Shown here: positions 28,107 to 30,065 of the stretch, piece by piece | Layout of the letters: each line of letters opens with the position of its first letter | Position numbering within the stretch: position 1 is the first letter of the stretch | Source: Kribbella sp. VKM Ac-2569 | GTDB lineage: Bacteria; Actinomycetota; Actinomycetes; Propionibacteriales; Kribbellaceae | Assembly: GCF_004216905.1 (NCBI RefSeq) | Contig: NZ_SGXJ01000003.1 | Coordinates: 434,001-498,000 of the forward strand | Direction of reading: 5' to 3' | Length of the DNA: 64,000 bases | The notes under the pieces: model-generated | What the model was told of the DNA's origin: nothing | What the model saw: only the letters and a program-made list of their open reading frames with translations | The model's database searches: none | Translations under genes and position numbers: made by a program

Positions 28107-28154
28107 CAACCAGCCGGCTTGACAGCCGGGACACAACAATCAGGGGCAACTGAT

Positions 28155-28190
28155 TTGGCGGAATCGAACAAATGTTCTAATATGAGAAAC
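28155..28190 (+). promoter_or_regulatory. LexA-regulated promoter of the DUF222-HNH gene (SOS box in spacer)
   Basis: TTGGCG (28155-28160), 17-base spacer, TAATAT (28178-28183), then seven bases to the ATG at 28191. The spacer and first -10 bases hold TCGAACAAATGTTCTA (28164-28179), one mismatch from the actinobacterial SOS box TCGAAC-N4-GTTCGA. LexA bound here would cover the promoter. Confidence 0.75.
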
Positions 28191-30008
28191 ATGCGAGCGA
28201 GTGTTGGAACCGGGGCAGGCGGCGACCATCGGGTCACCGCTGACACCGGCTCGCGCACCGATGCAGCCCCTCACCGTGACGTCGTGTGTGGTCATTGCAG
28301 ATGCGCCGCTGAGCCGCTGGACGATGGCTACGTCCCAGACGACCTGTACCACCTGACTGGTTCCGGGTCCCCGGATGATGCGCGCTTCGTCACTGAGGAA
28401 GACCAGTTGGACGCAGAGCTGGATGAGTTGCTGGGCCGGAACCGCTACTCGCGGGTGGATGAGTTCGAGTGGCAGGAGTGGGACGGGGTCGAGCAGGACG
28501 AGGCGGAACGGGAGATGTTGCGCCGGGAGGCGCCCGCGTGGGTGTTGTTGCCGCCCGGTGGTGCGCTGGCGGCCGCGTTGGAGGTAACGCGTCCGGGGGC
28601 GATGTCGCCGATGGCGCTGGTGGAGTTGATGAGGGCCGCGGACCGGCTGATCGGCTGGGGGGAGGCGATCAAGGCCAGTGCGATGGCGTCGTTCGTCCGG
28701 CAACGCCGTGCCGAGCATCGCGAGTCGCCCCGCCCGACGCAGATCGATTCCAGGGGCCGCCCGATCGACCCCGGGCGGTCCTGGTACGCCGAGATCGGGC
28801 TGGCGCTCGGGTTGTCGCCGGATACCGTCGGGCGGCGGGTCGAAACGGCGTTGCGTCTGACCTCGACGCTGTCAGCCACCCATACGGCGTTGCGGTGTGG
28901 TGCGCTGACGTGGGGCAAGACTCTGGCCATCTCCGAAACCACCGGCGACCTGCCGGAGGACGCGGCGCGAGCTGTGGAGACGCATGTGCTGAAACGCGCC
29001 GCCAAGCAGACCCATCGGAACCTGCTGGAGTCGTTGCGCCGCCAGGTCGCCAAACACACCGCCGCGCGCGCGGCGGAGGATCACCGTGCCGCCGCGGCCG
29101 AGCGCACCTGCAAGATCGTCCCCCTGGCCAACGGCATGGCAGGGCTGTGGATCGTCCACACCGCCGACAAGATCCAGCAGATGTGGGTCACCATCCAAGC
29201 CATCGCCGCCCTCGCCAAACGCGACACCCCCATCACCGACCCCACTGCCGACGCAGCTGCGTCCGCGGTCGGCCTCACCACCGAGGGCGACACTGCCGGG
29301 GACACGGCGCCGACAGCCAACGACACGGGGCCACCAACAGACAACGCCACCGGCACCGCCGCCAATTCGGGTGCGGGCGCGGACAAGGACGCCCGTACCG
29401 CCGAACAGCGCCGCGCCGATGTGACCGCCGACCTGTTCGAGCGCATCCTCCGCAACGGCCTGGACTGGCTCGGCCGCCGGCTGCCCGACCAGCACCGCCG
29501 CCGCCCGCACATCGAGGTCATCGTCCCCGCCTCCACCCTGCTCGGCATGGATGACGACCCCGCCGAACTCACCGGCTACGGACCCATCCCCGCCGAGATG
29601 GCCCGCCGCGTCGCCGCCGACGGCACCTGGCGCAGGCTCCTCACCGACCCTGCCAACGGCGCCATGGTCGAGGCATCCACCACCCGCCACAATCCTGGTG
29701 CACTCGTCACCGAAACGCTCCTTGCCCGCCACCCCGTCTGCGCCTGGCCCGGCTGCAACCGCACCTCCCGCGAATGCGACCGCGACCACCTCACCCCATT
29801 CGCCCAAACCGGCCGCACGAACCTGTCCGGAATGGCCCCGTACTGCGAGTATCACCACGTCATCAAAGACACCCCCGCCTGGGGCTGGCACACCACCAGC
29901 CACCCCGACGGCTCCATTACCCTGACGACCCCGACCGGCCACCGCTACAGGACAATCCCACCCGCCCGCGGGCCCATCACCCGACAAGCCGACCCTGCAC
30001 CCTTCTGA
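28191..30008 (+). CDS. DUF222 and HNH endonuclease domain protein (13E12-like)
   Basis: A protein of 605 residues. The DUF222 region fills the first two thirds, interrupted by a low-complexity Thr/Ala/Asp/Gly stretch (about 360-405). A C-terminal HNH nuclease domain (about 515-555) has CAWPGCNRTSRECDRDH and YCEYHH. The family is multicopy in actinobacteria (REP13E12 of mycobacteria) and is suspected to be DNA-acting, though its biology is unclear. The ATG at 28191 is chosen because a -10 box lies seven bases upstream; the in-frame ATG at 28182 overlaps that box and the upstream frame runs through the SOS box. It should be DNA-damage induced. Confidence 0.88.
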   Translation: MRASVGTGAGGDHRVTADTGSRTDAAPHRDVVCGHCRCAAEPLDDGYVPDDLYHLTGSGSPDDARFVTEEDQLDAELDELLGRNRYSRVDEFEWQEWDGVEQDEAEREMLRREAPAWVLLPPGGALAAALEVTRPGAMSPMALVELMRAADRLIGWGEAIKASAMASFVRQRRAEHRESPRPTQIDSRGRPIDPGRSWYAEIGLALGLSPDTVGRRVETALRLTSTLSATHTALRCGALTWGKTLAISETTGDLPEDAARAVETHVLKRAAKQTHRNLLESLRRQVAKHTAARAAEDHRAAAAERTCKIVPLANGMAGLWIVHTADKIQQMWVTIQAIAALAKRDTPITDPTADAAASAVGLTTEGDTAGDTAPTANDTGPPTDNATGTAANSGAGADKDARTAEQRRADVTADLFERILRNGLDWLGRRLPDQHRRRPHIEVIVPASTLLGMDDDPAELTGYGPIPAEMARRVAADGTWRRLLTDPANGAMVEASTTRHNPGALVTETLLARHPVCAWPGCNRTSRECDRDHLTPFAQTGRTNLSGMAPYCEYHHVIKDTPAWGWHTTSHPDGSITLTTPTGHRYRTIPPARGPITRQADPAPF

Positions 30009-30065
30009 GCACGATCAGCGTCGGCGCGTCAGTTGGCGCAAGACTCACGTACGCACACGTCCTGA

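Follow-up and report, generated by a model that had tools for sequence, protein, structure and literature searches.

The 13E12 genes of Mycobacterium tuberculosis provide the closest described precedent for the locus considered here. Four papers place these genes in the LexA regulon and report their induction by DNA damage (PMC4181829, PMC5005354, PMC6443821, PMC8151990), and one of the four also describes RecA-dependent HNH genes in this organism (PMC8151990). The papers drawn upon for M. tuberculosis cite Davis 2002 or Smollett 2012. The preliminary description of the present locus had mentioned a link between mycobacterial 13E12/DUF222-HNH genes and LexA, and this link is found in print (PMC4181829, PMC5005354, PMC6443821). 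The REP13E12 members Rv0515, Rv1702c, Rv3074, Rv3776 and Rv0336 resemble the gene discussed below in that they are described as DUF222 genes, are present in multiple copies and have an SOS box at the start. A second precedent is M. tuberculosis lexA, a LexA-controlled gene that is reported to be leaderless, i.e. its transcript and translation starts coincide (PMC2897130). The predicted start of the Kribbella gene is likened to it; lexA differs in that it is not a DUF222 gene. Thus LexA control of 13E12 genes is known, and what is new here is another DUF222 case with a clearer anatomy.

The window, i.e. the whole stretch of 64 kb that was analysed (G000:C3:434001-498000), comes from the 8.43-Mb genome of a Kribbella species. 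It contains a DUF222 gene, and a true LexA operator very probably overlies the core promoter of this gene, which would be leaderless; this assessment leaves aside what the protein does. Sequence comparison provides the operator, the promoter, the start codon, their fixed spacing and the motif held in common with lexA, recA and dinB. The features are listed in Table 1.

Table 1. Features of the DUF222 locus, in window coordinates
Feature	Position	Strand	Basis or remark
Insertion of ~1.96 kb (promoter and gene), flanked by an AraC-type gene and a DinB_2-ankyrin gene	28107..30062	+	Right end approximate
In-frame extension of the longer open reading frame, judged untranslated	28119..28190	+	Closed by stops in 22/23 homologues
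-35 hexamer TTGGCG	28155..28160	+	Sequence; block kept in 19 aligned Kribbella promoters
Predicted LexA operator (SOS box) TCGAACAAATGTTCTA	28164..28179	.	13/14 against TCGAACANNTGTTCGA
-10 hexamer TAATAT	28178..28183	+	First two bases are the operator's last two
ATG start codon, predicted transcript 5′ end (leaderless)	28191..28193	+	7 nt past the -10; box +25 to +27 in 23/23 homologues; in-frame stops upstream
DUF222 gene, 605 aa	28191..30008	+	PF02720, 43.2 bits (cut-off 24.4)
Helical core, residues 153-291, similar to the DNA-binding domains of ParB, Noc and KorB	28647..29063	+	AlphaFold2 and VIA-align
HNH-like zinc/beta-beta-alpha region, C517-H556	29739..29858	+	Weak PHROG HNH match, residues 507-559, E 0.003

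The preliminary description had placed TCGAACAAATGTTCTA between TTGGCG and TAATAT with an ATG seven bases after the -10, and the sequence bears out both the box and the position of the ATG. The box differs from TCGAAC-N4-GTTCGA at one position and lies in a 17-nt spacer, and the heptamer GAGAAAC separates TAATAT from the start codon, a distance within the ~6–8 nt expected of leaderless genes. The single G to T departure is explained by the overlap of the two signals, since TAATAT begins with this T; GTTCTA replaces GTTCGA almost universally in Kribbella homologues. The hexamers match the sigma-70 consensus at 8 of 12 positions and a generic promoter scan gives no call; the promoter is called because the hexamers are conserved among Kribbella homologues, where the consensus for the -35 region is GATTTGGCT (19 aligned promoters). 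The M. tuberculosis 13E12 genes may differ from the arrangement seen here, where the operator sits between the -35 and the -10 and has bases in common with the latter.

Could the box have arisen by chance, as a palindrome that happens to fall in a promoter of the usual kind? It is the single site in the 64-kb window with fewer than two mismatches, but when two mismatches are allowed seven sites appear against 3.9 expected. This count is near chance, and therefore the window alone is weak evidence. Homologues decide the matter. The preliminary description had proposed that a lack of the box before homologues would speak against the LexA reading; its conservation is in fact strong, and all 23 homologues from named Kribbella genomes with an intact start region have it. 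The box matches 11–13 of 14 positions, its distance to the ATG is kept, and most of these genes lie at unrelated loci. The only conserved columns in the aligned promoters are the -35, the box, the -10 and CATG. The box of one homologue (L072) reads TCGAACAGGTGTTCTA, and at 12/14 the match is slightly poorer in L174, the nearest orthologue at 96% identity. Together with the distribution of the box among paralogues described below, this conservation rules out a chance palindrome, which is scarcely credible. Another Kribbella DUF222 gene (L353) has two tandem SOS-like boxes upstream.

The homologues also bear on the start codon. A longer frame is real, with 629 aa from a TTG at 28119, and it reads through the operator. 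In 22 of the 23 homologues an in-frame stop lies 6–30 nt upstream of the ATG, and in most cases the TAA within the -10 serves as this stop; the frame stays open in the window gene because its ATG sits one base further on. The in-frame stops point to 28191 as the start, as the preliminary description had argued, and the comparative evidence for this position is strong. Another in-frame ATG, at 28182, was considered and rejected: it lies inside the -10 and is out of frame in two relatives (L077, L091).

A PF02720 search finds 17 DUF222 genes in the same genome, and the comparison of paralogues that had been proposed earlier divides them cleanly. All ten members of one subgroup carry a box of 13–14 of 14 at the start, and none of the seven other genes does (Fisher p=5.1e-5). 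The ten box-bearing genes all score low against the Pfam model, and the two sets split at 100/100 support in a tree in which long branches meet. Two layouts can be distinguished among the ten. In layout A (the window gene, L020 and a frameshifted copy, L009) the box is between the -35 and the -10, the latter is TAATAT, and the ATG follows 6–7 nt on. In layout B (L010, L011, L012, L013, L014, L017 and L018) the -10 lies ahead of the box, and the box takes in the start codon, as in TAGAAT-CGAACAC-ATG-TTCGAG. A -10-like hexamer ends 6–7 nt ahead of the ATG in all 17 DUF222 genes, whether a box is present or not (TGTATT in L012), which suggests a leaderless promoter common to the whole set, upon which the operator has been overlaid in two registers. 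The frameshifted copy (L009, C4:432318-433939) retains an intact SOS promoter, has its frameshift ahead of the HNH region and appears as a pseudogene.

At the level of the genome, CGAACANNTGTTC has 28 strand-specific matches (19 sites) compared with three in a reversed control, and DUF222 start codons account for eight of the 19 sites. The motif also precedes lexA (L065), recA (L025) and the Y-family polymerase gene dinB (L061), all named by Pfam, as well as an imuA′-like gene (L023) that has no Pfam match. The start codon of dinB falls within its box. The genes lexA, recA and dinB form the classical autoregulated SOS set. The occurrence of one motif before these three genes and before the DUF222 genes, in conjunction with the published LexA control of 13E12 relatives, supports a LexA link of the box. 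A different repressor may be envisaged, and PMC8151990 speculates that ArsR proteins occlude SOS boxes in M. tuberculosis. The presence of the motif before the organism's own lexA, recA and dinB makes the use of the box by an ArsR-type protein or another such repressor very unlikely.

From this anatomy we infer LexA binding, induction and a leaderless 5′ end. In the undamaged cell a LexA dimer on 28164–28179 would extend over the spacer into the -10, covering its first bases, and block RNA polymerase. DNA damage would activate RecA and lead to LexA self-cleavage, and transcription would then start at or beside 28191, with the AUG as the 5′ end of the mRNA.

The preliminary description had termed the product a DUF222-HNH nuclease. 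The DUF222 assignment stands, and the PF02720 match spans residues 192–504. The nuclease label has to be softened because Gly547 (29829–29831) occupies the position where the HNH Asn is expected, and Gly, in one case Asp, is found there in all clade members with a readable motif. The protein has no match to the Pfam HNH domain and lacks the H-N-H catalytic motif, and so can be termed HNH-like only. The clade, found only in Kribbella, differs from the M. tuberculosis 13E12 genes in both its genus restriction and this Gly. DUF222-HNH proteins of another genome of the phylum, G053, keep the full H-N-H motif, and the HNH part of one of them matches Cas8-HNH fusions in the PDB, where sequence relatives of the window protein were not found.

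AlphaFold2 gives a confident model for residues ~110–343 only. The full-length model is poor elsewhere, and the HNH region is therefore given no structural reading. Whether taken alone or within the full model, the helical core has members of the ParB family (ParB, Noc, Spo0J, KorB) in all of its best 14 rows, with VIA-align Z values of 9.8–6.5 and rmsd mostly 2.3–3.5 over ~100 residues, although Z runs high for helical folds and a single clade supplied both models. Foldseek E-values for the core are weak (0.2–0.4), a weak helix-turn-helix Pfam match lies inside the same stretch, and a profile search of PDB sequences gave no ParB-type relatives of the core. The predicted core thus resembles a ParB-like DNA-binding domain, and this is a lead and not proof. 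Unlike ParB, Noc or KorB, the protein has no visible CTPase domain and is fused to the HNH-like region.

These features bear on what the protein may do. One reading holds that in the Kribbella clade it is a nuclease-dead DNA-binding regulator. The loss of the HNH Asn and the ParB-like core fit this, but the zinc cysteines and both histidines are invariant or nearly so in the clade, as they would be in a working domain, and a dead regulator is rather unlikely on balance. A damage-triggered suicide or abortive nuclease has a possible parallel in the M. smegmatis HNH DNase MSMEG_1275, which is lethal when over-expressed (PMC9416677); the N272A substitution abolished killing by that enzyme, whereas the Kribbella clade has Gly for the Asn, and the best PADLOC family match is only E 0.008. 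Such a role is decidedly unlikely, and an anti-phage system was rejected on the same PADLOC result. Equally improbable is a DNA-repair nuclease. SOS co-regulation would suit it, and 13E12 genes have been hypothesized to take part in a system resembling mismatch repair (PMC4181829). However, the layout A clade is patchy, being present in 21 of 38 Kribbella genomes with 0–12 matches each, one copy (L009) is a pseudogene and the insertion loci vary, which is unlike a core repair gene.

The AraC-type and DinB_2-ankyrin genes that flank the DUF222 gene are directly adjacent in ten Kribbella genomes, which represent empty sites, and a DUF222 gene lies between them in three (G000, G024 and G029). The G029 flanks share 93% identity with those at the window locus, but its DUF222 gene only 84–86% with the window gene, and it is about as close to the paralogue L020; the greater divergence of the gene suggests that it was replaced at this locus. 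In near-identical copies at unrelated loci the common sequence reaches 45–115 bp ahead of the ATG, and its other limit is at or close to the stop codon. The shared upstream segment indicates that the SOS promoter travels with the gene, and to judge from these alignments promoter and gene disperse as one unit. Inspection of the unit ends by eye showed no terminal repeats or target duplication. Carriage by phages or plasmids was considered and rejected: partial matches occur in five unannotated phage contigs, DUF222 carriage was not confirmed in viral contigs, and one plasmid match was found.

The segment just upstream of the SOS promoter (~28126–28152) is also the site of other insertions. G024 has an IS481-like insertion of 1450 bp there, the family being named by eye, and in G029 an APH-like gene is accompanied by a similar IS end. 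The APH segment of G029 recurs (98%, 1.1 kb) upstream of the box of the paralogue L009, at the C4 locus of the window's own genome (L131).

The protein may bind DNA at specific sequences and carry an HNH-type module, either a nuclease or a former one. Its gene and promoter would form a self-contained unit that spreads and is exchanged from locus to locus, with expression at a time when recombination proteins are also induced. This account is put forward tentatively and is somewhat less likely than not.

A survey of the class, in which 511 bp upstream were searched, finds a box of at least 12/14 in 44 of 91 DUF222 upstream regions, from 21 of 41 genomes, compared with 1 in 1820 shuffles; the sample favours high-scoring DUF222 genes with several per genome, and 48% is no clean rate. 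SOS control thus does not extend to every DUF222 gene, since about half of those sampled across the class and seven of the 17 here are boxless. A search of 396 genomes of the phylum finds the composite TANNNTCGAACNNATGTTCGA, an operator with the start codon inside, in 37 (reversed control, 0). The identified genes behind it are mostly DUF222/HNH but also include UvrD-type helicases, and layout B is thus an SOS design of general use, which DUF222 genes share with others. The UvrD/Rep-like helicase genes with a start-codon-embedded box are L118 and L128, called by Pfam, and L116, L119, L122 and L123, called by sequence. In G053 (2.5 Mb) there are 31 such composites, and all 20 DUF222-HNH genes carry a perfect palindrome with an embedded ATG; its SOS regulon looks dominated by one family.

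Two other sequences recur near DUF222 starts. The block TGTCGGTGGG is found in the -35 region of SOS-boxed and boxless DUF222 genes alike (L002-L007 in the same genome, and also L107 and L233), in distant genera. The palindrome CCCTTG-N3-ATAAGG has nine exact matches in the 8.43 Mb, all 50–70 bp before DUF222 starts. It precedes both SOS and non-SOS genes (L002, L004, L005, L007, L010, L011 with one mismatch, L013, L014, L017 and L018) and is missing before the window gene. It is present in 32 of 38 Kribbella genomes, is nearly absent from a reversed control and is rare outside the genus. The palindrome is a possible recognition site or unit end. A more speculative proposal is that DUF222-HNH genes are single-gene selfish units of actinobacteria, which combine a ParB-like site-specific DNA-binding domain with an HNH module, carry their own leaderless SOS promoter and spread by damage-linked recombination, and that in Kribbella the product of many of the copies recognizes CCCTTG-N3-ATAAGG; we consider this rather unlikely.

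We found no paper that describes the pattern across the phylum, a start codon embedded in the operator, the base common to the -10 and the operator, or the dispersal unit; most of the subscription literature was outside the search, so that novelty is unproven. The findings extend a few observations on M. tuberculosis 13E12 genes to a broad rule, by which large DUF222 subgroups in many actinobacteria appear wired to DNA damage via a leaderless promoter, and in actinobacterial DUF222 subgroups the operator often holds the start codon itself. They also fix the start positions of many genes for which the annotation may be wrong on this point. Moreover, they make the role of 13E12/DUF222 proteins directly testable, i.e. 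which DNA is bound, whether it is cut, and whether the units spread after damage.
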